A stretch of 64,000 bases of DNA from Physcomitrium patens (Eukaryota > Streptophyta > Bryopsida > Funariales > Funariaceae), in assembly GCF_000002425.4 (NCBI RefSeq), contig NC_037271.1, positions 5,525,878 through 5,589,877 on the forward strand, in the 5' to 3' direction. The notes under the pieces were generated by a model. The model was not told where the DNA came from. It made no database searches and saw nothing but the letters and a program-made list of their open reading frames with translations. Below are positions 2,660 through 46,027 of the stretch, piece by piece (position 1 is the first letter of the stretch; each line of letters begins with the position of its first letter). A program made the position numbers and the translations under genes.

Positions 2660-3220
2660 TGTCACGGACATAATCATGTAAGCTAGTAATTATATATACA
2701 AATAGGTAGAAGTAAATAAAAATAGGTAAAAGTAAGTTAATTCTATAGTATTTAATATGGAAGCTTCCTAGAAGCTTCATAGATGTTGCTTTGACTTCAT
2801 AGGTATCTTTAATTGACTTTTTGGATTAGAAACGTAGTCAACAAGTTGGCCATGTGCCACACATGTTGTTAGCTTAAAGATCAAGCTAACTATGTGGCCC
2901 ACACGTAGAAAAACTTGCCTTGTAAGTCAAGGCATGTGTCCTACAAAGTCAACACATATTGGAGGTCCTATAGAACGTTGCTACGTAGCCCCTAGTAAGA
3001 TAATATATATAGAGACAAGAGTGAAGGCTTCTTCAGTCTTGTCAACTCCTTTCTTGCTTCCAGTATAGTTTCAAGGGTCTCTAGTTTTCTTGTCTTTTAG
3101 CAATAGCCATTCCAGTTTCTCTTTGAATATATATCCTTGTTTATATATATTTTGTTACTTCTCTTTGATTGAAGGCTCACTTGTCTGAATTATTTTTTCA
3201 TCGAGTTCTTGTCTTTGACA
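2660..3220 (+). repeat. 5' LTR of element A
   Basis: 561 bp, starting TGTCACGG and ending TTTGACA. It contains a TATATATAG box followed about 31 bases later by AGTCTTGTCAA, one base off the 11-mer that pairs with the priming site just beyond the LTR. GAAGCTTC palindromes (heat-shock-element dimers) lie in the first third. It differs visibly from the 3' LTR at 21238-21796. Confidence 0.93.
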
Positions 3221-3431
3221 GATTGACAAGAGTACACCTATAATATCAGAGTTTTGTCTAATTTGATTAAGAGTGGATTACCCCTTTTTCTTGATAAGAT
3301 ATAAGCATATTAGAAGTTGCGGATTATCCTCTTCTAAACTGATATAGTCCTTAATATTTTCTTTGCTCTCAAGTCCTTTCTTCTATTTGTCTTGAGCGAT
3401 ATTAGACATCTTCTCTCTTCTAAGTGTTATC

Positions 3432-3841
3432 ATGGCAGAACTTGTTGAAATGAAGAGTGCAATGGCACAAATGCAAGAGCAATTGAAGAAGTTAATGCTT
3501 GCGATGCATCAACTCAATTTACCATCATAAGGAGCAACAAGATTGGCAGGAAGTAAAGATATAGAAATGATTGGAGCTGCTTCAACATCTGTATCAAACC
3601 ATGTCCTTTCTCCTATGGTGGAACACCCTTCAAATGTTAGAGAACCAAGAATTGTCCTACTTGAGAAGTTTGATGGCACCAGATCCAAGTTTCGAGGATT
3701 TATCAATCAAGTGCAACTTGTGATTGAACTTCAATCCCAAAGCTATCCAACTCCAAGATCACAAGTTAGATTCATTAGTACGCTTCTTTCAAGTTCAGCA
3801 CTATCGTGGTTTTCATCTTTTTTTGAACGACGAGATCCAAT
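3432..3841 (+). pseudogene. gag: Element A gag, first part
   Basis: Starts with ATG at 3432 (M-A-E-L-V-E-M-K-S-A-M-A-Q-M) after a leader of about 210 bases, as in element C. A TAA interrupts it near residue 32. The conserved capsid-like stretch (EKFDGTRSKFRGFINQVQL, residues about 75-95) is intact. The frame stops at the CCAAT duplication where element B entered, and continues at 16589. Confidence 0.88.
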
Positions 3842-4393
3842 TGTCAAGGACAAAGACTCGATGAGGGAAAATATACACAAAAAGGCTATCTCGATATAAT
3901 AAGTCAAAATATAAACAAGTAGGTATATTAAAAGGAAACTGGAATGGCTATTGCCACAAGACAAGAAACTAAAGACTCTTGAACCTGGACTAGAAGCAAG
4001 AAAGGAGTTGACAAGAGTGAAGAAGCCTTCACTCTTGTCTCTATATATACTATCTAACTAGGGGCTACGTGGCGACGTTCTATAGGACCTCCAATATGTG
4101 TTGACTTTGTAGGACACATGCCTTGACTTACAAGGCAAGTTTTTCTACGTGTGGGCCACATAGTTAACTTGATCTTCAAGCTAACAACATGTGTGGTACA
4201 TGGCCAACTTGTTGACCACGTTTCTAATCCAAAAAGTCAATTAAAGACACCTATGAAGTCAAAGCAGCGTCTAAGAAGTTTCTAGGAAGCTTCTATATTA
4301 AATATTATAGAATTAACTTACTTTTATCTACTTTTACTTACTTCTATCTATTTCTATATGTAATTATTAGCTTACATGATTATGGCCGTGACA
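3842..4393 (-). repeat. 3' LTR of element B
   Basis: 552 bp. In element sense it begins TGTCACGG and ends CTTGACA. It is followed on its left by the CCAAT duplication and preceded in element sense by the purine tract AGAAGGGGGGGTAA. Nearly identical to 16032-16583. Confidence 0.95.
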
Positions 4394-4434
4394 TTACCCC
4401 CCCTTCTAGAGACGAGTTCCACGAGGAGCGGTCA

Positions 4435-4856
4435 TCATATGTTGAGGAAATCTATGATGCGACGAATTGTATTCGCCACATACTCTGATCTCTGTTCTCT
4501 TCGAAGATGATTGATAGGGCCTCTCAACCATCGGTAGTGTCCCATACCAGGGCGGGAAGACCACCCAGTTATTTGATCATTGTTGAGGCCTTCGTAACTT
4601 CCTTCGAATAGAATATTTGGAACACCATCAGGAGTTGTTTCTACCTCTAGCAAAATCACCAAACATCAGGAGTCCCTTCCCAAATCGTGATACCAAACGC
4701 GTTGTATCTCACCATCTATTCGAGGAAGAACATGTCATTCTTGAAGATGTTCATCTCGATTGCGTCGTCTTGAAGGTTGTGACAATCGTAATGTCTCCTC
4801 CGACAAGTCAGCAAACGAAGGTTCTTGAGTTGAATTTGCTGGTTGTTGGTCTCCAT
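4435..4856 (-). pseudogene. ORF3 of element B
   Basis: Copy of the third ORF that follows the chromodomain gene in this family. ATG is at 4856-4854 and TGA at 4437-4435. A 1-base loss near the start (GAGACC where C has GAGAGCC) and a TGA about two-fifths of the way along break the frame. The C-terminal 75 codons are open and nearly identical to C (FEGSYEGLNNDQITGW, GHYRWLRGPINHL). No known domain, signal peptide or membrane segment is apparent. Function unknown. Confidence 0.65.
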
Positions 4857-4950
4857 CTAATTAGCGTCACAAATGCAAAGAAGTTACAAACAAGGATAGG
4901 AAATTGAATGTTATCTTGCCTCAATCTTGTCTCTCTTATAAGAGAGATTT

Positions 4951-5199
4951 TCATCTTGGTTTCGATGGATGTCGTTGATGAAAAACTTTGACTTTAGCTG
5001 ATGCATTTGCTAGATTTCTAGATGGCTCCCATGTGCATTCACTAATATCATATCCGCGCTAATGAACAAGATATTCCAGCTTATTTCGGCACCGCCTTGA
5101 GTCTAATATCTCTTCCACCTCAAATTCTTCATTATTATCTACTTCTATAGGAGGCGGTGGCATTTGTCTTCTTCCTTGTATATCCATTGTCTTATATGG
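4951..5199 (-). pseudogene. pol: Element B pol, chromodomain end
   Basis: The last 80 or so codons of B pol, stop at 4953-4951, covering the chromodomain (in element C the equivalent reads FEVEEILDSGRRRNKLEYL, then HWHGYDISERTWEP). It is separated from the rest of B pol (11574 onward) by element C. The junction carries the C target duplication TATGG at 5195-5199. Confidence 0.85.
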
Positions 5200-5750
5200 T
5201 GTCACCGCCATAATCATGTAAGCTAATAATTACATATAGAAATAGGTAGAAGTAAGTAAAAGTAGATAAAAGTAAATTAATTCTATAATATTTAATATAG
5301 AAGCTTCCTAGAAACTTCCTAGATGCTGCTTTGACTTCATAGGTGTCTTTAATTGACTTTTTGGATTAGAAACGTGGTCAACAAGTTGGCCATGTGCCAC
5401 ACATGATGTTAACTTGAAGATCAAGCTAACTATGTGGCCCACACGTAGAAAAACTTGCCTTGTAAGTCAAGGCATGTGTCCTACAAAGTCAACACATATT
5501 GGAGGTCCTATAGAACGTCGCCACGTAGCCTTTAGTTAGATAGTATATATAGAGACAAGAGTGAAGGCTTCTTCACTCTTGTCAACTCCTTTCTTGCTTC
5601 TAGTCCAGGTTCAAGAGTCTTTAGTTTCTTGTCTTGTGGCAATAGCCATTCCAGTTTCCTTTTAATATACCTACTTGTTTATATTTTGACTTATTATATC
5701 GAGATAGCCTTTTGTGTATATTTTCCCTCATCGAGTCTTTGTCCTTGACA
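5200..5750 (+). repeat. 5' LTR of element C
   Basis: Begins TGTCACCG and ends CTTGACA. U3 holds CACGT-core motifs (CCACACGTAG, GCCACGTAG) and GAAGCTTC. A TATATAT box at 5544-5550 is the likely core promoter. It lies directly after the chromodomain fragment of element B. Confidence 0.95.
5544..5585 (+). promoter_or_regulatory. TATA box and predicted transcript start with self-complementary 11-mer
   Basis: TATATAT at 5544-5550 is followed by ACTCTTGTCAA at 5575-5585. The 11-mer begins 31 bases after the start of the TATA box, where plant transcription usually starts. It is the exact reverse complement of TTGACAAGAGT at 5753-5763. The start site itself is inferred, not observed. Confidence 0.65.
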
Positions 5751-5752
5751 GA

Positions 5753-5763
5753 TTGACAAGAGT
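5753..5763 (+). other. Probable self-priming primer-binding site of element C
   Basis: TTGACAAGAGT starts 2 bases after the LTR end and pairs perfectly with LTR bases 5575-5585. No TGG, the usual complement of a tRNA CCA end, lies at the LTR edge. A TATCAGAGC string, the core of the initiator-Met tRNA site, occurs 24 bases from the LTR (5774-5782) and is the main competing interpretation. Confidence 0.65.
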
Positions 5764-5959
5764 ACACTTACAATATCAGAGCTTTGTTTTTTCTTGAGTA
5801 AGAGTGGATTACCCCTTTCTCTTGACAAGACATAAGTGTATTAGAAGTTTGCGGATTACCCACTTCTAAACTGATATTGTTCTTAGTATCTTCTTTATTA
5901 TCAAGTCTTTCTTTTCTTTTGTCTTAAGCAATATCAAACAAATTTTTCTTAGTGTCATT

Positions 5960-6964
5960 ATGGCAGAGCTTGTTGAAATGAAGAGTGCAATGGCACAAAT
6001 GCAAGAGCAAATGAGGGAGTTAATGCTTGCGATGCATCAACTCAATTCACCAACACATGAAAGAACAAGAATAGCAGAAAGTGGAGATATTGAGATGATC
6101 GGAGCTGCTTCAACATCTATAACAAATCACGTTCCTTCTCCAATTGTACAACACCCTATAAGCACTAGAGAACCAAGAATTGCCTTACCTGAGAAATTTG
6201 ATGGTACGAGATCAAAGTTTCGAGGGTTCATCAATCAAGTACAATTGGCAATTGAACTTCAACCGCAAAGCTATCCAACTCCAAGATCACAAGTCAGGTT
6301 TATTGGCACTCTACTTTCTGGTTCTGCATTATCGTGGTTTTCATCTTTTCTTGAACAACGAAATCCAATATTGGACAATTTGGAAGCTTTTTTGGCGGAG
6401 TTTCGATCTATGTATGGTGAACACGATGCAACTCGTGTTGCAACAAATAAGATCCGAATTCTGCGACAAGGAAATCGCTCAGTAACAGTATATGCTTCAC
6501 GATTTCGACAACTTGCAATTGACATCAAGTGGGATGATGCTGCACTCATCAGTCAATTTCTTTATGGATTGCAATATGAAGTAAAGAAATTGATGCTCAA
6601 CTTACCTGATCCTCAAACTTTGAGTCAAGCAATCGATTTTGCGGTAAAATGTGATAATCGACTTTTCGAATTTCGATCCAAGAATCATTCACGGGAACCT
6701 CAACGTTATTACTCAATGGCAACATCAACATCTTTGCCAAACGTACATTCAGAAGTAGAAGACATGCAAATTGACGCGGTACGTTTTAAACCCCTAACTG
6801 AGCAAAAAAAGATTCGTCGTCGTCAAGAAGGATTATGTTTATATTACGGAGAACCTAAGCACACTGCTCAACATTGTCCAAAGAAACGACGCAACTATAA
6901 AATGAGGGGTACGACGGTCAAAGAAGACAACATGTCGGAAAACGGATTCGTCCAGCTACAATAG
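5960..6964 (+). CDS. gag: Gag (capsid/nucleocapsid) of element C
   Basis: 334 residues, fully open, starting at the ATG after a leader of about 210 bases. Residues 1-35 form a methionine- and glutamine-rich helix likely to coil. Residues about 75-230 are the Ty3-type capsid core (EKFDGTRSKFRGFINQVQL, GTLLSGSALSWF, NKIRILRQGNRSVTVYASRF). Near the end is a zinc knuckle of CX2CX4HX4C type with its second cysteine changed to tyrosine (CLYYGEPKHTAQHC); element B keeps all four ligands. Pol follows in the -1 frame. Gag would package element RNA. It is intact although pol is not. Confidence 0.9.
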   Translation: MAELVEMKSAMAQMQEQMRELMLAMHQLNSPTHERTRIAESGDIEMIGAASTSITNHVPSPIVQHPISTREPRIALPEKFDGTRSKFRGFINQVQLAIELQPQSYPTPRSQVRFIGTLLSGSALSWFSSFLEQRNPILDNLEAFLAEFRSMYGEHDATRVATNKIRILRQGNRSVTVYASRFRQLAIDIKWDDAALISQFLYGLQYEVKKLMLNLPDPQTLSQAIDFAVKCDNRLFEFRSKNHSREPQRYYSMATSTSLPNVHSEVEDMQIDAVRFKPLTEQKKIRRRQEGLCLYYGEPKHTAQHCPKKRRNYKMRGTTVKEDNMSENGFVQLQ

Positions 6965-6969
6965 GGACC

Positions 6970-9900
6970 GTGCAGCTGGAACCTTGTACAATTCCTAATG
7001 AAGGTCCTATCCTCTATTCAGAACCCTCTCCTTGTTTTATAATAGACTTATATTTAGGACCTAAGAATTACAAAGCCTCTGCTTTATTAGATTCAGGAGC
7101 CTCAGCATATTTTTTAGATGAACAATTTGTTAAAAGTCGTAAAATACCCTTTGTACAGAAACCTAAACCAGTACATGTAGAAGTCATAGATGGTCGTCCC
7201 TTGTCTTCTGGAGATGTCACTCATGAAACTCATCCTATAAAAGTAACAATAGACGGTCATGATAGCTACATAGCTTTTAACATAATTAAATCCCCGTCCA
7301 ATCCAGTTATTTTAGGTTTATCCTGGCTAGAAAAGTATAACCCTCGAATAGATTGGAATTTGCGTAAACTTGACTTTTCCCAAAGCATTATTAATAGTTC
7401 TACCAACCAAGTAAAAAATTATAAGTCTAGTATAGTAAAACCCGTACTGATAGGTGTAAAAGCATTTATACACGCAGCAAAAGAAGGACCAACTTTTGCT
7501 ATTTATGCTGCACCTATTTTTGAAAACGTAAAGACTTCAATTGGCATTCCAAGTCAATATCAGGAGTATCAAGACGTTTTTGAGAAAAAGAATGCAGATA
7601 TTCTTCCTGAGCATCGCCCATATGATTGTTCAATCGACCTCAAGGAAGGAACTCAGCCACCATTTGGACCAATTTACAGTTTATCGCAAGATGAGATGGC
7701 TGAACTCAAGACATATATTGACGAGAATTTAGCGAAGAATTTCATACGCCATTCAAAATCTCCAGTAGGAGCTCCAATTCTATTTGTAAAGAAAAAAGAT
7801 GGATCTTTACGAATGTGTGTTGATTATCGAGGACTCAACAAGATCACAATCAAGAACAGGTATCCATTACCTTTGATATCAGGACTCCTTGACCAGTTGA
7901 ATCAAGCTAAGATCTATACAAAAATAGATCTAAGAGGAGCATATAATCTAGTACGGATCAAAGAAGGAGATGAATGGAAGACTGCGTTTCGAACCAGGTA
8001 TGGACATTTCGAATATAATATCATGCCCTTTGGACTCACGAATGCACCAGCTGCTTTTGAACATCTCATAAATGATGTATTTCATGAATTCTTAGATAAT
8101 TTTGTCGTCTGCTATCTAGACAATATCCTGATCTATTCTAAGAACGTCGAAGAACATGAAATACATGTTCGTCAAGTATTACAAAAACTTAGAGATGCAG
8201 GATTGTATGCCAAGATGGAAAAGTGTGTATTTCACACTACTCAAGTTGACTTTTTAGGATACATCATTTCAAATGATGGTCTCATGATGGATTCTAAGAA
8301 AGTCCAAACAATCATGGATTAGAAGATTCCAAGGACAGTAAGAGATGTCCAATGTTTCTTGGGATTTGTCAATTACTATCGGATCTTCATCAAAGATTTC
8401 TCATGAGTTGCACCTCCACTTACACGCTTGACTAGTAAAGATAAATTCCAATGGAATCAAGAATCGGAAGCAGCATTTGAAGCCTTGAAGACATCGTTTG
8501 TCTCTGCACCAGTCTTATATCGTGTTGACTTTTCCAAGGCATTTTTTATGGAAACAGATGCATCAGATTTTGCCTTAGGTGCAGTTTTATCACAAATGGG
8601 AATAGATGACAAGCTTCATCCGATAGCTTTTCATTCAAGAAAATTCTCAGCAGCCGAGATCAATTATGAGATCTACGATAAAGAACTTCTTGCGATCGTG
8701 GATTCCTTTCAAGAATGGCGTCATTATCTAGAAGGCGCTTCTAGTCCAGTCACTGTGTATACAGATCACAAGAACCTCGAGTATTTCATGTCAGCACGCG
8801 TGTTGAATCGTCGTCAAGCTCGTTGGAGTATGTCTTTGTCAAGATTCGAGTTCATTATCACTTATCGACCAAGAAAACAACAAGGTTTGTCCGATGCATT
8901 GTCTAGACGTTCTTATTTTGCACCAAAAGAAGGAGATGCAGCTTTTGAGCAACAAAGAACGGTCCTCTTGAAACCGGAGCAATTTCATCTCTGAGCAATG
9001 AAATCAACATTGACTGTTGATTCAACTTTTCTCAAGCAAATCCAGTCCAGTATGTCCTCAGAGCCTCTTATTCATGATATCGAGAATAATTCTTCCAAGT
9101 CTCATGATTCTTCTAAGTTCGAGTTCAAGAATAATCTATTATATTTTGAAGGACGCCTATATGTTCCAGAAGGAGAAGCACGTTTACGTGTTCTTCAAGC
9201 ACGTCATGACTTTCCAACAGCAGGGCACTTTGGATATAATAAGACTTTGGAACTCATATCAAGAGATTTTTGGTGGCCACAAATGTGGAAGTCAGTAAAA
9301 GACTTTGTACAATCATGTGATATTTGTTCAAGATCAAAAATTCCTCGTCATCGACCTTACGGACTTCTTCAGCCATTACCTATACCAGAACAACCATGGT
9401 CTTCTGTTTCTATGGATTTCATCACAAATCTTCCAAGCTCAAGATCTTATGATTCTATATTTGTGATAGTAGATCATTTCACCAAGATGGCACATTTTGT
9501 GCCATGTACAAAATCTATCACAGGTGAAGAAACAGCTAAACTTTTCATTGATAATATCTATCGCTATCATGGATTATCTAAAGATATCATATAAGATAGG
9601 GGAACTCAATTTGTGTCAAGATTTTGGAGGACCCTTTTCAAGATTTTAAAAGTGGACATAAAGCTATCTTCGGCTTTCCATCCTCAAACTGATGGACAAA
9701 CAGAGCGTGTAAACCAAGTCTTGGAGCAGTATTTAAGGTGTACTATCAACTACCAACAAAATGATTGGATAACCCTTCTGCCATTGGCAGAGTTTGCTTA
9801 TAATAATACGGTACATTCTTCCACGCAACAAACACCTTTCTTTGCCAATTATGGCTATCATCCACGACTTGATACTTTTGATTTTTCAAAAGTTGATAAT

Positions 9901-10458
9901 CCTGCAGTAGAAGATATGGCAAATCGATTGTCAAAGTTACATGCAATAATGAAGACGCAATTGAAGGAAGCTCAAGAACGACAAAAGATAAAGGCAGATC
10001 TATATCGTAAAGAGCAACCACAAATCAACGTGGGCAATAAGGTATGGCTACTTCGTCGCAATATCAAGACTACTCGACCTTGTGACAAGTTGGACTATCG
10101 TAGGCTTGGCCCCTTTTTTGTTTTTGAACAGATCAACCCAGTTGCATATCGGTTACATCTACCGGAGTCAATGAAGATCCATCCTGTATTCCACGTGTCT
10201 CTTCTTGAAGCATATAAGACAGTGGATATACAAGGAAGAAGACAAATGCTACTGCCTCCTATAGAAGTAGATAATAATGAAGAATTTGAGGTGGAAGAGA
10301 TATTAGACTCAGGGCGGCGCCGAAATAAGCTGGAATATCTTGTTCATTGGCACGGATATGATATTAGTGAACGCACTTGGGAGCCATCCAAGAATCTAGC
10401 AAATGCATCAGCTAAAGTCAAAGTTTTTCATCAACAACATCCATCAAAACCAAGATGA
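6970..10458 (+). pseudogene. pol: Pol polyprotein of element C (protease, RT, RNase H, integrase, chromodomain)
   Basis: One frame of 1163 codons with four stops: TAG 8320 (Trp codon in relatives), TGA 8404 (Arg), TGA 8992 (Arg) and TAA 9592 (Ser). Domains in order: aspartic protease (LLDSGASAYFLDEQFV); RT, where the catalytic Y-L-D-D reads Y-L-D-N ([13 protein letters not shown]); RNase H ([29 protein letters not shown]); integrase with CDIC zinc finger, SMDFITNLP, DRGTQFVSRFW and TDGQTERVNQ; C-terminal chromodomain (EYLVHWHGYDISERTWEP). The first three stops and the Asp-to-Asn change are shared with element B. The frame relative to gag is -1. Confidence 0.93.
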
Positions 10459-10552
10459 AAATCTCTCTTATAAAAGAGACAAGATTGAGGCAAGATAATA
10501 TTCAATTTTTTATCCTTGTTTGTAACTTCTTTGCATTTGTGACGCTAATTAG
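10459..10552 (+). other. Spacer between pol and ORF3 with hairpin and TATA-like string
   Basis: 94 bases between the pol stop and the ORF3 start. TCTCTT-ATAA-AAGAGA forms a short hairpin and also contains TATAAAAG. Related TTATAAAA or TTATAAGA strings occur at the same place in A, B and H. Whether this is an internal promoter, an RNA structure or chance cannot be told from sequence. Confidence 0.35.
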
Positions 10553-10975
10553 ATGGAGAGCCAACAACCAGCGGATTCAACTCAAGAACCTTCGTTTGCT
10601 GACCTGCCGAAGGAGACATTATGATTGTCACAACCTTCAAGACGACGTAATCGAGATGAAGATCTTCAAGAACGACATGTTCTTCCTCGAATAGATGGTG
10701 AGATACAACGCGTTTGGTATCACGATTTGGGAAGGGACTCCTGATGTTTGGTGATTTTGCTAGAGGAAGGAACAACTCCTGATGGTGTTCCAAATATTCT
10801 ATTCGAAGGAAGTTACGAAGGCCTCAACAATGATCAAATAACTGGGTGGTCTTCCCACCTTGGTATGGGACACTACCGATGGTTGAGAGGCCCTATCAAT
10901 CATCTTCGAAGAGAACAGAGATCAGAGTATGTGGCGAATACAATTCGTCGCATCATAGATTTCTTCAACATATGA
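10553..10975 (+). pseudogene. ORF3 of element C, an uncharacterised 140-codon ORF
   Basis: From ATG 10553 to TGA 10973-10975 the frame is kept over 141 codons, with two internal TGA codons. One replaces CGA present in A; the other replaces CAA in A but is also TGA in B and K. The N-terminal third is polar with an arginine cluster (SRRRNRDEDLQERH). The C-terminal half is globular-looking (FEGSYEGLNNDQITGW, GHYRWLRGPINHLRREQ, RRIIDF). Compared with A, most differences in this frame are silent third-position changes, which argues for past selection on the protein. No membrane segment and no recognised family. It lies where some plant retroelements carry env-like genes, but nothing here looks like an envelope. 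Confidence 0.7.
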
Positions 10976-11002
10976 TGACCGCTCCTCGTGGAAATCGTCT
11001 CT

Positions 11003-11016
11003 AGAAGGGGGGCTAA
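11003..11016 (+). promoter_or_regulatory. Polypurine tract of element C
   Basis: AGAAGGGGGGCTAA directly before the 3' LTR, the expected primer for plus-strand synthesis. The same tract occurs before the 3' LTR in A, B and K. Confidence 0.85.
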
Positions 11017-11568
11017 TGTCACGGCCATAATCATGTAAGCTAATAATTACATATAGAAATAGGTAGAAGTAAGTAAAAATAGATAAAAGTAAGTTAATTC
11101 TATAATATTTAATATAGAAGCTTCCTAGAAACTTCCTAGACGCTGCTTTGACTTCATAGGTGTCTTTAATTGACTTTTTGGATTAGAAACGTGGTCAAGA
11201 AGTTGGGCATGTGCCACACATGTTGTTAACTTGAAGATCAAGCTAACTATGTGGCCCACACGTAGAAAAACTTGCCTTGTAAGTCAAGGCATGTGTCCTA
11301 CAAAGTCAACACATATTGGAGGTCTTATAGAACGTCGCCACGTAGCCCCTAGTTAGATAGTATATATAGAGACAAGAGTGAAGGCTTCTTCACTCTAGTC
11401 AACTCCTTTCTTGCTTCTAGTCCAGGTTCAAGAGTCTTTAGTTTCTTGTCTTGTGGCAATAGCCATTCCAGTTTCCTTTTAATATACCTAATTGTTTATA
11501 TTTTGACTTATTATATCGAGATAGCCTTTTTGTGTATATTTTCGCTCATCGAGTCTTTGTCCTTGACA
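11017..11568 (+). repeat. 3' LTR of element C
   Basis: 552 bp, near-identical to 5200-5750 with about 13-14 differences. It is followed by TATGA, the right copy of the target duplication, and then by the integrase C-terminus of element B on the minus strand. The B reading frame runs by chance into this LTR. Confidence 0.95.
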
Positions 11569-11573
11569 TATGA

Positions 11574-14500
11574 TTCAAGAAGAGACACGTGGAATATAGG
11601 ATGGATCTTCATTGACTCCGGTAGATGTAACCGATATGCAACTGGGTTGATCTGTTCAAAAACAAAAAAGGGGCCAAGCCTACGATAGTCCAACTTGTCA
11701 CAAGGTCGAGTAGTCTTGATATTGCGACGAAGTAGCCATACCTTATCGCCCACGTTGATTTGTGGTTGCTCTTTACGATATAGATCTGCGTTTATCTTTT
11801 GTCGTTCTTGAGCTTCCTTCAATTGCATCTTCATTATTGCATGTAACTTTGACAACCGATTTGCCATATCTTCTACTGCAGGATTATCAACTTTTGAAAA
11901 ATCAAAAGTATCAAGTCGTGGATGATAGCCATAATTGGCAAAGAAAGGTGTTTGTTGCGTGGAAGAATGTACCATATTATTATAAGCAAACTCTGCCAAT
12001 GGCAGAAGGGTTATCCAATCATTTTGTTGGTAGTTGATAGTACACCTTAAATACTGCTCCAAGACTTGATTTACACGCTCTGTTTGTCCATCAGTTTGAG
12101 GATAGAAAGCCGAAGATAGCTTTATGTCTACTTTTAAAATCTTGAAAAGGGTCCTCCAAAATCTTGACACAAATTGAGTTCCCCTATCCGATATGATATC
12201 TTTAGATAATCCATGATAGCGATAGATATTATCAATGAAAAGTTTAGCTGTTTCTTCACCTGTGATAGATTTTGTACATGGCACAAAATGTGCCATCTTG
12301 GTGAAACGATCTACTATCACAAATATAGAATCATAAGATCTTGAGCTTGGAAGATTTGTGATGAAATCCATAGAAACAGAAGACCATGGTTGTTCTGGTA
12401 TAGGTAATGGCTGAAGAAGTCCGTAAGGTCGATGACGAGGAATTTTTGATCTTGAACAAATATCACATGATTGTACAAAGTCTTTTACTGACTTCCACAT
12501 TTGTGGCCACCAAAAATCTCTTGATATGAGTTCCAAAGTCTTATTATATCCAAAGTGCCCTGCTGTTGGAAAGTCATGACGTGCTTGAAGAACACGTAAA
12601 CGTGCTTCTCCTTCTGGAACATATAGGCGTCCTTCAAAATATAATAGATTATTCTTGAACTCGAACTTAGAAGAATCATGAGACTTGGAAGAATTATTCT
12701 CGATATCATGAATAAGAGGCTCTGAGGACATACTGGACTGGATTTGCTTGAGAAAAGTTGAATCAACAGTCAATGTTGATTTCATTGCTCAGAGATGAAA
12801 TTGCTCCGGTTTCAAGAGGACCGTTCTTTGTTGCTCAAAAGCTGCATCTCCTTCTTTTGGTGCAAAATAAGAACGTCTAGACAATGCATCGGACAAACCT
12901 TGTTGTTTTCTTGGTCGATAAGTGATAATGAACTCGAATCTTGACAAAGACATACTCCAACGAGCTTGACGACGATTCAACACGCGTGCTGACATGAAAT
13001 ACTCGAGGTTCTTGTGATCTGTATACACAGTGACTGGACTAGAAGCGCCTTCTAGATAATGACGCCATTCTTGAAAGGAATCCACGATCGCAAGAAGTTC
13101 TTTATCGTAGATCTCATAATTGATCTCGGCTGCTGAGAATTTTCTTGAATGAAAAGCTATCGGATGAAGCTTGTCATCTGTTCCCATTTGTGATAAAACT
13201 GCACCTAAGGCAAAATCTGATGCATCTGTTTCCATAAAAAATGCCTTGGAAAAGTCAACACGATATAAGACTGGTGCAGAGACAAACGATGTCTTCAAGG
13301 CTTCAAATACTGCTTCCGATTCTTGATTCCATTGGAATTTATCTTTACTAGTCAAGCGTGTAAGTGGAGGTGCAACTCATGAGAAATCTTTGATGAAGAT
13401 CCGATAGTAATTGACAAATCCTAAGAAACATTGGACATCTCTTACTGTCCTTGGAATCTTCTAATCCATGATTGTTTGGACTTTCTTAGAATCCATCATG
13501 AGACCATCATTTGAAATGATGTATCCTAAAAAGTCAACTTGAGTAGTGTGAAATACACACTTTTCCATCTTGGCATACAATCCTGCATCTCTAAGTTTTT
13601 GTAATACTTGACGAACATGTATTTCATGTTCTTCGACGTTCTTAGAATAGATCAGGATATTGTCTAGATAGCAGACGACAAAATTATCTAAGAATTCATG
13701 AAATACATCATTTATGAGATGTTCAAAAGCAGCTGGTGCATTCGTGAGTCCAAAGGGCATGATATTATATTCGAAATGTCCATACCTGGTTCGAAACGCA
13801 GTCTTCCATTCATCTCCTTCTTTGATCCGTACTAGATTATATGCTCCTCTTAGATCTATTTTTGTATAGATCTTAGCTTGATTCAACTGGTCAAGGAGTC
13901 CTGATATCAAAAGTAATGGATACCTGTTCTTGATTGTGATCTTGTTGAGTCCTCGATAATCAACACACATTCGTAAAGATCCATCTTTTTTCTTTACAAA
14001 TAGAATTGGAGCTCCTACTGGAGATTTTGAATGGCGTATGAAATTCTTCGCTAAATTCTCGTCAATATATGTCTTGAGTTCAGCCATCTCATCTTGCGAT
14101 AAACTGTAAATTGGTCCAAATGGTGGCTGAGTTCCTTCCTTGAGGTCGATTGAACAATCATATGGGCGATGCTCAGGAAGAATATCTGCATTCTTTTTCT
14201 CAAAAACGTCTTGATACTCCTGATATTGACTTGGAATGCCACTTGAAGTCTTTATGTTTTCAGAAATAGGTGCATCATAAATAGCAAAAGTTGATCCTTC
14301 TTTTGCTGCGTGTATAAATGCTTTTACACCTATCAGTACGGGTTTTACTATACTAGACTTATAATTTTTTACTTGGTTAGTAGAACTATTAATAACGCTC
14401 TCGGAAAAGTCAAGTTTACGCGAATTCTAATCTATTCGAGGGTTATATTTTTCTAGCCAGGATAAACCTAAAATAACTGGATTGGATGGGAATTTAATTA

Positions 14501-14813
14501 TGTTAAAAGTTATGTAGCTATCATGACCGTCTATTGTTACTTTTATAGGATGAGTTTCATGAGTGACATCTCCAGAAGACAAGGGACGACCATCTATGAC
14601 TTCTACATGTACTGGTTTAGGTTTCTGTATAAAAGGTATTTTACGACTTTTAACAAATTGTTCATCTAAAAAATATGCTGAGGCTCCTGAATCTAATAAA
14701 GTAGAGGCTTTGTAATTCTTAGGTCCTAAATATAAGTCTATTATAAAACAAGAAGAGGGTTCTGAGGAGAGGATAGGACCTTCTTTAGGAATTGTACAAG
14801 GTTGTAGCTGCAT
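11574..14813 (-). pseudogene. pol: Pol of element B, main part
   Basis: Colinear, codon for codon, with element C pol. Protease (LLDSGASAYFLDEQFV), RT (Y-L-D-N in place of Y-L-D-D), RNase H and integrase (SDRGTQFVSRFW intact, unlike C) are all readable. Stops at 13463-13461 (TAG), 13379-13377 (TGA) and 12791-12789 (TGA) match the three in C; a TAG at 14429-14427 is private to B. It ends at the C insertion and continues at 5199-4951 with the chromodomain. Expressed relative to gag, pol lies in the -1 frame. Confidence 0.92.
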
Positions 14814-14818
14814 GGTCC

Positions 14819-15823
14819 CTATTGTAGCTGGACGAATCCGTTTTCCGACATGTTGTTTTCTATGACCGTCGTACCCCTCATTTTATAGTTGCGTCGCTTC
14901 TTTGGACATTGTTGAGCAGTGTGCTTAGGTTCTCCGCAATATAAACATAATCCTTCTTGACGACGACAAATCTTTTCTTGCTCAGTTAGGGGTTTAAAAC
15001 GTACCGCGTCAATTTGCATGTCTTCTACTTTCGAATGTACGTTTGGCAAAGATGTTGATGTTGCCATTGAGTAATAATGTTGAGGTTCCCGTGAGTGATT
15101 CTCAAATCAAAATTCGAAAAGTCGATTATCACATTTTACCACAAAATCGATTGCTTGACTCAAAGTTTGAGGATCAGGTAAGTTGAGCATCAATTTCTTT
15201 ACTTCGTATTGCAATCCATAAAGAAATTGACTGATGAGTGCAGCATCATCCCACTTGATGTCAATTGTAAGTTGTCGAAATCGTGAAGCATATACTGTTA
15301 CTGAGCGATTTTTTTGTCGCAGAATTCGGATCTTATTTGTTGCAACACGAGTTGCATCGTGTTCACCATACATAGATCGAAACTCCGCCAAAAAAGCTTC
15401 CAAATTGTCCAATATTGGATTTCATTGTTCAAGAAAAGACGAAAACTATGATAATGCAGAACCAGAAAGTAGAGTGCCAATAAACCTGACTTGTGATCCT
15501 GGAGTTGGATAGCTTTGCGGTTGAAGTTCAATTGCCAATTGTACTTGATTGATGAACCCTCGAAACTTAGATCTCGTACCATCAAATTTCTCGGATAAGG
15601 CAATTCTTGGTTCTCTAATGCTTACAGGGTGTTGTACAATTGGAGAAGGAACGTGATTTGTTATAGATGTTGAAGCAGCTCCGATCATCTCAATATCTCC
15701 ACTTTCTGCTATTCTTGTTCTTTCATGTGTTGGTGAATTGAGTTGATGCATCGCAAGCATTAACTCCCTCATTTGCTCTTGCATTTGTGCCATTGCACTC
15801 TTCATTTCAACAAGCTCTGCCAT
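14819..15823 (-). pseudogene. gag: Gag of element B
   Basis: Same length as element C gag (335 codons with stop), ATG at 15823-15821. Three private stops interrupt it: TAG at the Trp after GSALS, TGA in the LEQRN stretch, and TGA near 15106. All fit C-to-T decay on one strand or the other. The zinc knuckle CLYCGEPKHTAQQC keeps all four metal ligands, so it gives the best view of the original nucleocapsid of this family. Confidence 0.88.
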
Positions 15824-16018
15824 AATGACACTAAGAAAAATTTGTTTGATACTGCTCAAGACAAAAGAAAAAAAAGACTTGATAACAAAGAAGATACTAA
15901 GAACAATATCAGTTTAGAAGTGGGTAATCCGCAAACTTCTAATACGCTTATGTCTTGTCAAGACAAAGGGGTAATCCACTCTCACTCAAGAAAAACAAAG
16001 CTCTGATATTGTAAGTGC

Positions 16019-16029
16019 ACTCTTGTCAA
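16019..16029 (-). other. Probable self-priming site of element B
   Basis: In element sense TTGACAAGAGT lies 2 bases past the 5' LTR end, as in C. The matching ACTCTTGTCAA is present in both B LTRs after the TATA box. The site is unchanged from C. Confidence 0.62.
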
Positions 16030-16031
16030 TC

Positions 16032-16583
16032 TGTCAAGGACAAAGACTCGATGAAGGAAAATATACACAAAAAGGCTATCTCGATATAATAAGTCAAAAT
16101 ATAAACAAGTAGGTATATTAAAAGGAAACTGGAATGGCTATTGCCACAAGACAAGAAACTAAAGACTCTTGAACCTGGACTAGAAGCAAGAAAGGAGTTG
16201 ACAAGAGTGAAGAAGCCTTCACTCTTGTCTCTATATATACTATCTAACTAGGGGCTACGTGGCGACGTTCTATAGGACCTCCAATATGTGTTGACTTTGT
16301 AGGACACATGCCTTGACTTACAAGGCAAGTTTTTCTACGTGTGGGCCACATAGTTAGCTTGATCTTCAAGTTAACAACATGTGTGGCACATGCCCAACTT
16401 GTTGACCATGTTTCTAATCCAAAAAGTCAATTAAAGACACCTATGAAGTCAAAGCAGCGTCTAAGAAGTTTTTAGGAAGCTTCTATATTAAATATTATAG
16501 AATTAATTTACTTTTATCTACTTTTACTTACTTCTACCTATTTCTATATGTAATTATTTGCTTACATGATCATGGCCGTGACA
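16032..16583 (-). repeat. 5' LTR of element B
   Basis: 552 bp, near-identical to 3842-4393. Its right edge is followed by CCAAT, after which the gag of element A continues. Together the two LTRs and the duplication define B exactly. Confidence 0.95.
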
Positions 16584-16588
16584 CCAAT

Positions 16589-17186
16589 ATTGGATAATCT
16601 AGAGGCTTTTTTGGCAAAGTTTCGATCCATGTATGGAGAACATGATGCAATTCGTGTTGCAACCAATAAGATCCATATTTTACGACAAGGCAATCAATCA
16701 ATAACATTATATGCTTCACAATTTCGATAACTTGCAACTGATATCAAGTAGGATGATGCTCCACTTATTAGTCAATTTCTCTATGGATTACAATATGAGG
16801 TAAAAAAATTAATGCTCAACTTACGTGATCCTCAAACATTGAGTCAAGCAATTGACTTTGCTATGAAGTGCGACAATCACCTTTTTGAATTCCGATCTGA
16901 GAACCATACAAGTAAACCTCAACGTTACTATAATTCAATGGCAACACCAATACCTCTTTAATACATACATTCGAAAGTAGAGGATATGTAAATTGATGCA
17001 ATACGTTTCAAACCTCTTACTGAGCAAGAAAAGACTCGTAGTCGTCAAGAAGGATTATGTTTATATTATGGAGAACCAAAGCACACTACTCAACATTATC
17101 CAAAGAAATGACGCAATTACAAAATGAGGAGTATGGCTGTGAAAGAAAACAATATGTCGAAAAATAAGTTTGTCTAGCTACAATAG
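16589..17186 (+). pseudogene. gag: Element A gag, second part
   Basis: Continues the frame broken at 3841 (ILDNLEAFLAKFRSMYGEH-like). In-frame stops occur, for example TAA after SQFR and TAG in the I-K-W-D stretch. The zinc-knuckle region reads LCLYYGEPKHTTQHYPKK, so two ligands are lost. The terminal TAG at 17184-17186 is in the same place as in B and C. Confidence 0.85.
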
Positions 17187-17191
17187 GGTCC

Positions 17192-20100
17192 GTGTGGTTG
17201 GAACCTTGCACAACATCTAGTAAAGGTCCTATTCTCTCTTCAGAGGTCTCTCCTTGTTTTACATTAAATGTTATTTTAGGACCTAAACATTACAAAGTCT
17301 CTGCCTTGTTAGATTCAGGAGCCCTCAGCATGTTTTTTAGATGAAGAATTTACTAAAAGACATAGTATATCTTTAATAAAGAAAACTAAATCTGTTCATG
17401 TAGAAGTCATAGAAGGTCGTCCATTGTCTTCTGGAGATATTACTCATGAAATCCTTCCTATAGAAGTAATAATCAATGGTCATAATAGTTTTGTAGTATT
17501 TAATATCATTAGATCTTCCTCTAATCCAGTCATTTTAGGTTTATCGTGGTTAGAAAAATACAACCCTCAAATAGATTGGATTTCCCGAACTCTTACTTTC
17601 TCTAAAAGTATAACTAACAGTGTAGTTAATCAAGTAGAGAGTCATAAGTCCAGTTCAATTAAATCCGTATTTATAGGTGTAAAAGCTTTCTTGCATGCTG
17701 CTATGAAAGAATCACCATATATTATTTATGCCACACCCGTTTCTATTGGTAAAAAGACTTCAAGTGGCATTCCAAGCCAATATCAAGAATTTCAAGATGT
17801 ATTTGAAAAAAAAAATGTAGATACACTCCCGGAACATCGTCCCTATGATTGCTCAATTGACCTTCAAGAAGGAGCACAACCGCCATTCGGACCAATCTAC
17901 AGTTTATCACAAAATGAGTTGGCTGAACTCAAGGAGTATATTGAAGAAAATCTAGCCAAGAATTTCATATGCCATTCTAAATCTTCGGCAGGAGCTCCAA
18001 TTCTATTTGTAAAGAAAAAAGATGGATCATTGTGGATGTGTGTTGATTATTGAGGACTCAACAAGATTACCATCAAGAACAGGTATCTACTACTTTTAAT
18101 ATCTGGACTTCTTGATCAGCTGAATCAAGCTAAGATCTATACAAAAATAGATCTTCGTGGAGCACAAAATCTAGTACGCATCAAAGAAGGAGATGAATGG
18201 AAGACTGCATTTCGAAGTAGGTATGGACATTTTGAATACAACGTCATGCCTTTTGGACTTATAAATGCATGAGCAGCTTTTCAACATCTAATGAATGATG
18301 TTTTTCGAGAGTTTTTGGACGATTTTGTAGTCTGTTATCTAGACGGCATTTTGATCTATTCTAAGAATCCAAAAGAACATGAACTTCATGTTTGTCGCAT
18401 GTTACAAAAATTAAGAGATGCAAGACTCTATATCAAGATAGAAAAGTGTGTATTCCACACTACTCAAGTCGATTTTTTAGGTTACATCATTTCAAATGAT
18501 GGACTTATGATGGATGCTAAGAAAGTTCAAACTATTATAGACTGGAAGATCCTAAAAACGGTAAGAGATGTCTAATATTTTTTGGAATTTGCCAACTACT
18601 ATTGGATCTTCATCAAAGACTTCTCTCGAGTTGCAGCTCCACTTACATATTTGACTTGTAAAGACAAACTCCAATGGAATCAAGAAGCGAAAGTTGCTTT
18701 TGAATCTTTGAAGATAGCGTTTGTTTCTGCACCAATCTTATATCGTGTTGATTTTTTCAAAGCATTCTTTATGGAAATAGATGCATCGGACTTTGCTCTG
18801 GGTGCGATTTTATCACAAATGGGAATAGATGACAAACTTCATCAAGTAGCCTTTCATTCAAGAAAATTCTCAGTAATAAAAATCAATTATGAGATCCACG
18901 ACAAAGAACTTCTTGCAATTGTGGATTCTTTTCAAGAATGGCATCATTATCTAGAAGGTGCTTGCAGTCTAGTCACTATATATATAGATCATAAGAATCT
19001 CGAATATTTTATGTCAGCACGCATATTAAATCGTTGCCAAGCTCGTTGGAGCATATCTTTATCAAGATTCGAGTTCATCATCACTTATCGACTAGGAAAA
19101 CAACAAGGTTTATCTGATGCCTTGTCTAAACATTCTTATCTTGCACCAAAAGAAGAAGATGTAGCTTTTGAGCAACAAAGAACGGTTCTCTTGAGGCCAC
19201 AACAATTTCATCTTCGAGCAATAAAATCAACATTGATTATTGATTTAACTTTTTTTAAGCAAGTCTAGTGAAGTATGTCTTCAGACCTTCTTGTTTATGA
19301 TATCAAGAATAATTCTTTTAAATCTCATGATCCATCTAAATTTGAATTCAAGAACAACCTACTCTATTTCAAAGGACGCCTATATATTCCAGAAAGAGAA
19401 GCATGTTTATGTGTTCTTCAAGCTCGTCACGACTTCCCAGCAGTAGGATATTTTGGATATAATAAGACTTTGGAGCTGATATTTAGGGATTTTTGGTGGC
19501 CTCAAGTGTGGAAGGCAATTAAAGATTTTGTACAATCATGTGATATTTGCTCAAGATCGAAAACTCCTCGTCATCGATCTTTTGGACTTCTTCAGCCATT
19601 ACCCATCCAAAACAACCATGGTCTTCTGTTTCTATGGACTTCATTACGGATCTTCTAATCTCAGGTTCTTATGACTCTATATTCATGATAGTAGATCGTT
19701 TTACCAAGATGGCACATTTTGTACCATGTACAAAATCTATCACTAGTGAAGAAACAGCTAAACTCTTTTTTGACAATATCTATCACTATCATGGATTATC
19801 CAAGGATATTATATCAGATAGGGGAACTCAATTTGTATCAAGATTTTGACGGACTCTTTTTAAGATTCTTAAAGTGGATATAAAACTATCTTCAGCATTC
19901 CATCCTCAAACTGATGGACAAACGGAGTGTGTTAATTAAGTTTTGGACCAATACTTAAGATGTACCATTAATTATCAACAAGATGATTGGACAACTCTTT
20001 TGCCATTGGCAGAGTTTGCTTACAATAACATGGTACATTCTTCTACAAAACAAACACCTTTCTTTGCTAATTATGGTTATCATCCATGACTTGATACTTT

Positions 20101-20680
20101 TGACTTTTCAAAAGTAGATAATCTTGCTATAAAAGATTTGGCAATTCATTTATCAGAGCTACATGCAACGATGAAGGCGCAATTAAAAGAGGCTCAAGAA
20201 CAACAAAAGATCAATGCGGATGTCTATCAAAAGGAACAACCATCATTTGTTCTGGGTGATAAGGTATGGCTACTTCGTCATAATATCAAGACCACTCGTC
20301 CTTGAGACAAGTTGGACTATCGAATGCTTGGATCATTTTCTATTTCTGCACAAATCAATCCAGTTGCATATCATTTACATCTACTGGAATCAATGAAAAT
20401 CCATCCAGTATTCCACGTATCTCTTCTTGAACCATACAAGACAGTGGACATACCAAAAAGATGACAAGCTCTACCTCCTCCTATAGAAGTAGACAATAAT
20501 AAAGAGTTTGAAGTAGAAGAAGTCTTAGATTCAAGGCGGCGCCAAAATAAATTAGAATATCTTGTCCATTGACGCAGATATGGTATTAGTGAACACACAT
20601 AGGAGCCAATAAAGAATCTTGTAAATGCAGCAAAGGCGGTGGAGGCTTTTCATCGACGACATCCATCAAAATCAAGATGA
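17192..20680 (+). pseudogene. pol: Pol of element A
   Basis: Same order and nearly the same length as C pol. One extra base in the protease (GAGCCCTCAGC) shifts the frame, and a lost base near 19610 restores it. Many stops occur. The RT motif reads Y-L-D-G. The three sites that are stops in B and C are sense codons here (TGG, CGA, CGA), which shows those stops are derived in the B/C lineage. Integrase and chromodomain are recognisable (DRGTQFVSRF; FEVEEVLDSRRRQNKLEYL). Confidence 0.9.
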
Positions 20681-20774
20681 AAACCTACTTTATAAAAAAA
20701 ACAACATCTAGGCAAGATAACATTCTACTTTCAATTCTTGTTCGTAGCTTCTTTGTAGTAGTAACGCTCAGGAG

Positions 20775-21196
20775 ATGGAGAACCAACAACCAGCAGATTC
20801 GACTCAAGAGCCTTCATTTGCTGACCTACCGGATGAGACATTACGATTGTCACAACCTTCAAGATAATGCAATCGAGATGAAGATCTTCAAGAACGACAT
20901 GTTCTTCTCGAATAGATGGCGAGATACAACGTGTTTGGTATGATGATTCAAGAAGGGACTCTCAATGTTTGGTGATTGTGCTAGAGGTAGGAACAACTCC
21001 TGATGGTGTTCCAAATATTCTATTTGAAGGAAGTTATGAAGGCCTCAACAATGATCAAATAACTGGGTGGTCTTCTTGTTCTGGTATGGGACACTACCGA
21101 TGGTTGAGAGGCCCTATCAATCATCTTCGAAAAGAATAAAGATCAGAGTATGTGGCGAATACATTTTGTCGCATCATAGATTTTCTCAACATATGA
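20775..21196 (+). pseudogene. ORF3 of element A
   Basis: Third ORF downstream of the chromodomain, with start and stop at the same places as in C. One base is missing (CTTCTCG for CTTCCTCG) and stops occur after the arginine cluster and near the end. Relative to C, silent third-position changes dominate. A keeps CAA at the codon that is TGA in B, C and K, so the ancestral frame was probably continuous. Confidence 0.65.
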
Positions 21197-21237
21197 TGAC
21201 CGCTCTTTGTAGAACTCGTTCTTAGAAGGGGGGGTAA

Positions 21238-21796
21238 TGTCACGAACATAATCATATAAGCTAGTAATTATATATAGAAATAGATAGAAGTAAGTAAAAG
21301 TAGATAAAAGTAAGTTAATTCTGTAGTATTTAATATGGAAGCTTCTTAGAAGCTTTATAGACGCTGCTTTGACTTCATAGGTGTCTTTAATTGATTTTTT
21401 AGATTAGAAACGTGGTCAACAAGTTGGCCATGTACCACACATGTTGTTAGCTTGAAGATTAAGGTAACTATGTAGCCCACACGTAGAAAAACTTGCCTTG
21501 TAAGTCAAGGCATGTGTCCTACAAAGTCAACACATATTGGAGGTCCTATAGAACATCGCCACGTAGCCCCTAGTTAGATAGTATATATAGAGACAAGAGT
21601 GAAGGCTTCTTCATTCTTGTCAACTTCTTTCTTGCTTCTAGTCTAGTTTCAAGGGTATCTAAATCTTATCTTTTGGCAATAGCCATTCAAGTTTCTCTTT
21701 CAATATATATCCTTGTTTATATATATTTTGTTACCTCTCTTTGAGTGAAGGCTCACTTGTCTGAATTATTTTTTCATCGAGTTTTTATCCTTGACA
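21238..21796 (+). repeat. 3' LTR of element A
   Basis: 559 bp, preceded by the purine tract AGAAGGGGGGGTAA and followed by GATAG. It diverges clearly more from 2660-3220 than the B or C pairs do, in line with A being the older host of B. Confidence 0.93.
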
Positions 21797-29883: not shown

Positions 29884-30419
29884 TATCATGAATATACACA
29901 TGTAAAATAATAATTACCTATATCATTTAAATAATAGTAGATAAAAATAGATTAATTCCATAATATCTTTTATAGAAGCTTCATAGACACTGCTTTCACT
30001 TTATAGGTGTCTTTAATTGACTTCTTAGATTAGAAACATAGTCAAAAAATTGGCCATGTACCACACATATTGGTAGCTTGAAGAACAAGCTTACTATGTG
30101 GCCGACACGTAGAAAACTTGCCTTGTAAACTAAAGCATTTGTCTTGCAAAGTCAACACATATTAGAAGTCCTATAGAACATTGTTATATAGCTCTTAGTT
30201 AGATAGTATATATAGAGGCAAAAGTGAAGCCTTCTTTATTCTTGTCAACTCCATTCTTGCTTCCAGTCTAGTTTCAAGGATCCTTAGTTTTCTTGTCTTT
30301 TGACAATAGCCATTCCAGTTTCTTTTATAATATACATATCAAGTTATTTCTATTTTGTTATCTTTCTTTGAAAGAAGACTCACTTGTTATTTGTCTTTAT
30401 TATGTTCTTGTCCTTGAAA
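29884..30419 (+). repeat. 5' LTR of element H
   Basis: About 536 bp, aligned with 63469-64000 and more loosely with the A/B/C LTRs. Ends are worn (start TATCATG for TGTCACG, end CCTTGAAA for CTTGACA). The TATATATAG box is kept. The 11-mer after it reads ATTCTTGTCAA, and the site past the LTR reads TTGACAAAAGT, each one base off the intact pair. Confidence 0.8.
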
Positions 30420-31055: not shown

Positions 31056-31477
31056 TGTTAGGGACATAATCCTTAGAACCTTCTAGAGACAAGTTTCTAG
31101 AACCTTCTAGAAGCAAGTCTCTGGAACCTTCTAGAAGCAAGTCCCTAGAACCTTCTAGAAGCTTCTTAGTTGGTAGAAGATGTTAAGGACATAGTCCTTA
31201 GAACCTTCTAGAGATAAGTTTCTAGAACCTTCTAGAAACAAGTCTCTGGAACCTTCTAGAAGCTTCTTAATTGGTAGAAGTTGCTTTAGAAGCTTCCTAA
31301 ATATGAGTATATATTGGAATTGAGGCTGAAGAGTTCTTCAATCTCGACAACACATCTCTTGGAGCTCTAGCTCACCTCTCTAGTATTGTTCTTGTATTCA
31401 TCTGATTAATTTAGTTCGTGCTAGTTCTTCTTGAACTTCTTGTTAGATCTCAAGTCTGTTTTTCTGAGTCCGTGACA
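31056..31477 (+). repeat. 5' LTR of element F
   Basis: Starts TGTTAGGGACATAATCC and ends GTCCGTGACA. It contains a partial tandem duplication of about 125-135 bp (31056-31185 and 31185-31290), also in the 3' LTR. TATATATT follows near 31308, then AATCTCGACAA about 32 bases later (AGTCTCGACAA in the 3' LTR). Confidence 0.93.
31095..31266 (+). promoter_or_regulatory. Array of perfect heat-shock elements in the F LTR
   Basis: Four runs of alternating TTC/GAA triplets spaced by exactly 2 bases: 31095-31112, 31148-31165, 31220-31237 and 31249-31266, each with four units, plus shorter runs between. Three alternating units already form a canonical heat-shock-factor site. The array lies 40-210 bases before the TATA box, where an upstream activator would act. 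The same array occurs in the 3' LTR at about 45629-45790. Heat response is inferred by analogy with the Arabidopsis ONSEN element. Confidence 0.75.
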
Positions 31478-31479
31478 GT

Positions 31480-31490
31480 TTGTCGAGACT
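31480..31490 (+). other. Probable self-priming site of element F
   Basis: TTGTCGAGACT lies 2 bases past the LTR end. Its reverse complement AGTCTCGACAA is exactly present in the 3' LTR at 45890-45900, 32 bases after the start of TATATAT at 45858; the 5' LTR copy has one change. The site differs from the A/B/C site at several bases, and the LTR partner differs correspondingly. Confidence 0.65.
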
Positions 31491-45599: not shown

Positions 45600-46027
45600 T
45601 GTTAGGGACATAATCTTTAGAACCTTTTAGAGACAAGTTTCTAGAATCTTCTAGAAGCAAGTCTCTAGAACCTTCTAGAAGCTTCTTAGTTGGTAGAAGA
45701 TGTTAGGGACATAATCCTTAGAACCTTATAGAGATAAGTTTCTAGAACCTTCTAGAAGCAAGTCTTTGGAACCTTCTATAAGCTTCCTAGTTAGTAGAAG
45801 TTGCTTTAGAAGCTTCCTAGTTGGTAGAAGTTGCTTTAGAAGCTTCATAAATATGAGTATATATTGGAATCGAGGCTGAAGAGTTCTTCAGTCTCGACAA
45901 CACATCTCTTGGAACTCTAGCTCACCTCTCTAGTATTCTTCTTGTATTCATCTGATTAATCTAGTTCTTGCCAATTCTTCTTGAACTTCTTGTTAGATCT
46001 CAAGTCTGTATTTCTGTGTCCGTGACA
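45600..46027 (+). repeat. 3' LTR of element F
   Basis: 428 bp, with the same internal duplication and TTC/GAA arrays as 31056-31477. It carries an extra copy of TTGGTAGAAGTTGCTTTAGA near 45790-45840. Followed by TCTAG and the gag of element H. Confidence 0.93.

Follow-up and report, generated by a model that had tools for sequence, protein, structure and literature searches.

The window analysed here is the whole stretch of 64,000 nucleotides of Physcomitrium patens found at positions 5,525,878 to 5,589,877 (forward strand) of contig NC_037271.1 (assembly GCF_000002425.4). It contains a nest of three long terminal repeat (LTR) retrotransposons of one family (family 1), in which element C (5200-11568) lies inside element B (3842-16583, minus strand), itself inside element A (2660-21796), as well as copies of a second family (family 2). 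Taken together, sequence, geometry, conservation, between-family covariation, phylogeny and computed folding make it highly probable that the elements belong to the Tf1/sushi-type (Tcn1) chromoviruses and prime themselves, i.e. that their predicted first 11 transcript bases would serve as primer at a complementary primer-binding site (PBS).

Nested elements and their complementary sites

The relevant sites of element C are the following:

5200..5750, plus strand: 5' LTR of element C (TG...CA), 97.6% identical to its own 3' LTR
5544..5552, plus strand: TATA box TATATATAG (columns 5544-5553 conserved at 0.989 in 70 copies)
5554..5583, plus strand: hairpin spanning U3 and R (arms 5554-5566 and 5571-5583, loop 5567-5570, 13 pairs)
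5575..5585, plus strand: predicted self-primer ACTCTTGTCAA, the first 11 transcript bases with the start placed by TATA spacing
5751..5752, plus strand: GA spacer between LTR and PBS (GA in 67 of 70 copies)
5753..5763, plus strand: PBS TTGACAAGAGT, perfect complement of the self-primer
5774..5782, plus strand: leader motif TATCAGAGC, without TGG, 10 bases past the PBS
11017..11568, plus strand: 3' LTR of element C, with its primer copy mutated to ACTCTAGTCAA

Direct reading of the sequence confirmed the geometry given in the original prediction: ACTCTTGTCAA and TTGACAAGAGT are perfect reverse complements of each other, ACTCTTGTCAA begins 31 bases downstream of the first TATA-box base (5544), and the PBS is located two bases past the 5' LTR. 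The longest complement between the LTR of element C and its PBS region consists of exactly these 11 bases. LTR ends were set using target-site duplications (TSDs) read from the flanks (CCAAT/CCAAT for B, GATAG/GATAG for A, and TATGG/TATGA, 4 of 5 bases, for C); the 5' LTR of element C ends at 5750 (...TTGACA), and the PBS at 5753 is therefore two bases beyond it. Identity between paired LTRs was 98.0% for B and 92.5% for A.

The PBS sequence TTGACAAGAGT has six exact matches on both strands of the window, against 0.08 expected from 100 dinucleotide shuffles, these six being repeat copies and hence not independent. They correspond to the pair of element C, the pair of element B (which had also been announced, and is indeed present), the PBS of element A and the primer of the B 3' LTR (4008-4018). 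As a caveat, the primer copy in the 5' LTR of element A has one mismatch, and that in the 3' LTR of element C is changed as listed above. The corresponding features of B and A are:

3842..16583, minus strand: element B, split by the insertion of C (TSD CCAAT)
16198..16208, minus strand: self-primer of element B, exact match
16019..16029, minus strand: PBS of element B, exact match
2660..21796, plus strand: element A, split by the insertion of B (TSD GATAG)
3035..3045, plus strand: primer-like site AGTCTTGTCAA in the 5' LTR of element A, one mismatch
3223..3233, plus strand: PBS of element A, exact TTGACAAGAGT match

Pairing within and between families

Copies were searched in an assembly of 470,438,890 bases (101 contigs), in which the leader 15-mer ATATCAGAGCTTTGT has 3,553 matches (its reversed pattern, one), the primer with its next eight bases 6,928, and the LTR end with spacer and PBS 2,862 exact copies. 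Two samples were examined, 70 of the 3,553 leader matches for family 1 (all from contig C1, a first run of 50 and a later run of 20, and picked by a pattern outside both sites) and 50 of 237 matches for family 2; both sites could be aligned in all 70 and all 50 copies, and none was dropped. In family 1, 11 Watson-Crick pairs were present in 41 of the 70 copies, 10 in 20, 9 in 7 and 8 in 2, and 53 copies pair throughout when G-U pairs are counted. A close neighbour, meaning the nearest other sampled copy, was taken as a stand-in for youth. At 98% nearest-neighbour identity or more, 20 of 23 copies, full-length or not, keep all 11 pairs (22 of 23 with G-U). Had the majority of young copies lost the pairing, this would have spoken against self-priming, and it was not seen. 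Perfect copies were 5 of 10 at 95-98%, 15 of 24 at 90-95% and 1 of 13 below 90%. Copies with close neighbours, taken as younger, retain the match, which isolated copies tend to lose.

Column conservation in family 1 was 0.975 for the primer and 0.973 for the PBS, with 0.877 for the U5 sequence between them; other stretches are equally conserved, such as the TATA region (0.989), and among 271 windows of 11 bases, 23 score above the primer and 31 above the PBS. Primer:PBS pairs were standard in 97.1% of cases, and in 28-40% for slid controls. The LTR end aligns as TTGGCT, not TTGACA, in 4 of the 70 copies, three of which (L034, L035 and L038) retain a perfect PBS; copies with this LTR end possibly form a subfamily.

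Family 2 provides a comparison within the same window, where its sites are:

31340..31350, plus strand: primer-like LTR site AATCTCGACAA, decayed
31480..31490, plus strand: PBS TTGTCGAGACT, 2 bases past GACA
45890..45900, plus strand: LTR copy with intact primer AGTCTCGACAA

The LTR regions concerned (31056-31477 and 45600-46027) carry a near-duplicate of a segment that begins TGTTAGGGACATAATC. The family 2 primer AGTCTCGACAA and PBS TTGTCGAGACT show three differences from family 1, each compensated on the opposite side.

The comparison was extended by scanning GTDB contigs with a reverse transcriptase (RT) alignment, which yielded 18 loci (L129-L146) that were taken as eukaryotic contaminants of bacterial records; these eukaryotic-looking retrotransposon contigs stand in records of Trichormus, Synechococcales, other metagenome-assembled genomes (MAGs) and one Bradyrhizobium. 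A like scan of viral contigs returned 127 pattern stretches, none of them a relative. Upstream of the RT match, a search was made for inverted matches separated by 80-450 bases, and exact ones of 11-12 bases were obtained in 7 of the 18 contigs (L129, L130, L133, L134, L135, L136 and L143), the remaining listed matches being of 9 bases each. In all seven elements the second site is two bases past ...ACA and the first begins with A, 32-33 bases after the TATA start; in L129 the match runs one base further upstream. Across the ten elements aligned, the TATA-to-primer distance is 31-33 bases and five primer/PBS pairs are found (ACTCTTGTCAA, AGTCTCGACAA, AAGGTGAACAA, AAGGCGAACAA and ACTCTTGATCAA, with their complements), the sole imperfect row being the family 2 LTR copy AATCTCGACAA of the window. 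Every one of the 88 primer:PBS cells of 8 elements holds a Watson-Crick pair, and changes occur at primer bases 2 to 8. This between-family comparison is the strongest part of the case for self-priming.

Trichormus azollae lives in Azolla ferns, and the L130-L136 and L143 contigs (from records titled uncultured Trichormus) are probably fern DNA; when part of L134 was searched against proteins, the 120 matches listed included neither a fern nor a moss name. L129 (cyanobacterium MAG) is probably of moss origin, because it groups with family 2 (100/99).

Clade, folding and the U3/R hairpin

Element C codes for Gag, protease, RT, an SH3 domain like that of Tf2-1 and a chromodomain, distributed as follows:

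5960..6961, plus strand: Gag open reading frame, Retrotrans_gag match
6928..8319, plus strand: protease to RT part of pol, RVT_1 and RVP_2 matches
9595..10455, plus strand: C-terminal part of the integrase with chromodomain, SH3_Tf2-1 (E 3e-20) and Chromo (E 1.9e-13) matches

The named rows among the protein matches listed are from frogs, reptiles, fungi and angiosperms (the best angiosperm alignments covering 31-52% of the query). An RT tree of 34 rows, without any row named Tf1 or Tcn1, separates three angiosperm chromovirus rows (Lotus, Tanacetum) from the moss, vertebrate and fungal rows (100/100), and joins families 1 and 2, L129 and two further copies of the window in a supported group (99/92). 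The RT position is thus with fungal and vertebrate relatives, not with angiosperm chromoviruses. Sequence points to membership of the Tf1/sushi (Tcn1) group, the assignment to Tcn1 being based on the tree position and on where moss elements have been placed in the literature (PMC2864245, PMC6317226).

Under the proposed mechanism, transcription would start at an A located 31-33 bases past the TATA start, the first 11 bases of the RNA would fold back onto the PBS two bases past the LTR, the RNase H of the element's RT would cut after base 11, and the freed 11-mer would prime minus-strand synthesis. The folding suggested in the original prediction agrees with this scheme, since all 11 primer bases pair with the PBS in the computed fold of the first 301 bases of element C (-64.4 kcal/mol). 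When nine 5' leaders were folded, the mean primer:PBS pairing probability was 0.92-0.96 in eight. Tf1 also requires two duplexes adjoining the primer duplex (PMC10085805). A stem joining R to the LTR end, from base 17 or 18, was predicted in L130, L133, L134, L143 and L136 (respectively 2, 3, 6, 14 and 2 of 1,000 shuffles as good), and that of L135 is within chance (247 of 1,000). The second, downstream duplex of the Tf1 'pretzel' is at best suggestive, in L130 alone (12 of 300 shuffles).

Several observations weigh against self-priming. The 301-base fold surpasses shuffles by a modest margin only (z -1.93; 3 of 100 as good), the mean pairing probability of the family 2 leader is 0.46, and the Tf1-like LTR-end stem beats shuffles in 5 of 9 elements and in none of element C (family 1), family 2 and L129. 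In family 2, 15 of 50 copies are perfect (11 Watson-Crick pairs), or 25 if G-U pairs are allowed, and the primer and PBS sites (0.958 and 0.947) are no better conserved than the U5 of this family (0.949); this family looks older and decayed. Among the contaminant contigs, 11 of 18 have no exact match longer than 9 bases: two of these (L131 and L142) start only within the coding match, eight gave none, and L132 has a PBS-like site with a damaged primer (read by eye). The covariation of paired positions that the original prediction proposed to look for is present between families (three compensated changes; five pairs) and absent within them, where compensation beyond chance was not seen in the sampled copies of families 1 and 2: the family 1 primers ATTCTTGTCAA (9 of 70) pair through G-U, and the 3 doubly changed family 2 copies at primer base 6 equal the number expected under independence. 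Finally, the transcript start (from TATA spacing), the RNase H cleavage and the priming itself are inferred from sequence.

The hairpin spanning U3 and R adds a third site to this pairing. In element C it has a z of -4.88, with 0 of 200 shuffles as stable. In 8 of 9 elements it takes up most of primer bases 1-9 in its pairing and covaries with both primer and PBS, its sequence varying between families while the pairing and the 4-base loop are kept; the L136 lineage has none. A transcript starting at primer base 1 would lack the U3 arm at its 5' end, which would therefore be free for the PBS, and the 3' LTR keeps this arm before R. Computed energies of the hairpin and of the primer:PBS duplex (-19.8/-14.4, -18.3/-16.2 and -17.2/-15.6 kcal/mol) favour the hairpin in three of the four stems considered, the fourth favouring the duplex (-12.1 vs -14.1 kcal/mol), so that the 3' primer copy and read-through transcripts would be masked. 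We tentatively propose, as a possibility that we hold at clearly below even, that in the self-primers of non-seed plants the hairpin holds the pairing information for a third time, in co-evolution with primer and PBS; it would exist only where U3 precedes R (3' LTR, read-through RNA) and would hide most of primer bases 1-9, leaving the PBS reachable by the true 5' end only; RNA structure would in this way distinguish the identical R copies. If the 3' copy is so masked, this would explain how an RNA with identical ends avoids pairing of the wrong copy with the PBS.

A competing explanation, which bears on the hairpin only and to which we give a nearly even chance, is that this structure acts as a palindrome of the promoter or as a 3'-end signal, or arose as a by-product of template switching, and does not mask the 3' primer copy. 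Its location between the TATA box and the start site suits a role at the DNA level, the L136 lineage does without it, and in family 1 the arm (0.935) is hardly more conserved than the U3 sequence upstream of the TATA box (0.912). On the other hand, the change of sequence between families with retained pairing and loop, together with the cover of primer bases 1-9, is unlike a fixed protein-binding site. No U3/R hairpin of this kind was met in the titles and openings of abstracts searched in an open-access collection for work on self-priming, nor in the texts consulted, subscription papers being mostly outside this scope. The novelty of the present work lies in the strength of the test and in the third co-evolving site; the hairpin itself may be new.

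Other explanations of the pairing and known systems

Complementary termini serve packaging, dimerisation or circularisation in other retroelements, and the primer:PBS pairing could be real and selected for such a function; the step from pairing to priming is itself deduced here, which leaves this explanation some room, but we judge it very unlikely. Minus-strand synthesis must start at the site two bases past the LTR, the match begins exactly at the predicted +1, and Tf1, a relative of the same group, self-primes (PMC4600332, PMC10085805).

Priming by a tRNA, for example by initiator tRNA-Met at TATCAGAGC (5774-5782), would make the 11-base match incidental. In its favour, TATCAGAG is kept in the leaders of families 1 (5774-5782) and 2 (31505-31512); this motif and TATCAGAGC resemble part of the plant initiator-Met PBS. 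However, TATCAGAGC has no TGG for the CCA end of a tRNA and begins 24 bases past the TSD-fixed LTR end, and the motif was not seen past the PBS of the seven contaminant elements; TATCAGAG without TGG is perhaps the relic of an older PBS. The tRNA-primed chromoviruses of plants (CRM, Tekay, Reina, Galadriel) have a PBS beginning with TGG at the LTR end, a feature absent from the elements described here, whose PBSs begin with TTG. The five PBS types were also compared with 20 of at least 63 tRNA genes, a narrow isotype sample (Arg, Gln, Lys, Asn and Ile only, no initiator Met), in which matches to the family 1 and family 2 PBS regions do not exceed 5 bases, that to L130 has 6 and that to L136 has 7; tRNA priming was rejected on these matches of at most 7 bases, within this sample. 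We regard it as highly improbable, and the preference of the original prediction for Tf1-like self-priming over a tRNA is strongly supported by the between-family covariation, the constant geometry and the phylogeny. Chance, or common ancestry without function, is scarcely credible: copies of one genome are related and the 70 and 50 copies are thus not independent, but five primer/PBS pairs occupy the same place in ten elements from more than one source and are complementary save in one decayed copy, and none of 320 mononucleotide shuffles reached perfect pairing over 11 bases in a scan anchored on the TATA box (best score 10.5; only exact matches counted as evidence, since 106 of the 320 shuffles had some match of at least 8.5).

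Elsewhere in the window, tandem repeats of about 79-81 bases occur at 37036-37835 and 44685-45402, within paired direct repeats flanking a minus-strand element whose proteins were unmatched by the chromovirus RT query, and at 28001-30000 GC content drops to 20% across 2 kb, with a GC skew of 0.18.

Family 1 is probably RLG1, an assignment made from abundance and chromodomain and not from shared sequence. RLG1 is the most abundant element of Physcomitrium patens, a gypsy element with a chromodomain and 5,092 complete copies, transcribed in protonema with the youngest copies alone expressed (Vendrell-Mir et al. 2020, PMC7466625); the main text of that paper makes no mention of PBS, primer binding or self-priming. 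Self-priming is backed here by thousands of copies and by between-family compensation, and the element concerned probably ranks as the dominant, expressed retrotransposon of a model moss, in which self-priming is directly testable. The same geometry in the probable fern contigs would broaden the known plant range of the Tf1/sushi (Tcn1) group.

Self-priming has been worked out in fission yeast (PMC4600332, PMC10085805), and for plants it has, in the papers considered here, been a prediction only (PMC6317226). Tf1 of Schizosaccharomyces pombe, Tj1 and Tosmo1-3 share the chromodomain integrase with the present elements (PMC4600332, PMC10085805), and the LTR-end stem of the Tf1 'pretzel' is matched in part of the elements studied here, not in the moss families. 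They differ in that the host is here probably a moss, and in the U3/R hairpin, unmentioned in the accessible accounts of Tf1 (the Tf1 U3 itself being outside this comparison). Tf1/sushi elements are known to occur in non-seed plants from the S. osmophilus study (PMC10085805). For SM-Tcn1 of Selaginella moellendorffii, which belongs to the clade published for moss elements, neither tRNA priming nor self-priming was evident (Novikova et al. 2010, PMC2864245), unlike the situation described here. The original prediction was wrong in supposing that there was no such description in plants, since Neumann et al. 2019 (PMC6317226) predicted self-priming for most Tcn1-clade elements, the chromoviruses of moss and club-moss, and for the TAR copia lineage too. 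Tf1-type self-priming, already predicted for the clade, is very likely in these elements because the pairing is kept in copies, the same geometry recurs across five pairs, and the RT phylogeny agrees. They resemble the Tcn1 clade (PMC6317226) in RT position, chromodomain and predicted self-priming, and to that prediction are added here the between-family covariation, the geometry of 11 bases with a 2-base spacer, and the U3/R hairpin.
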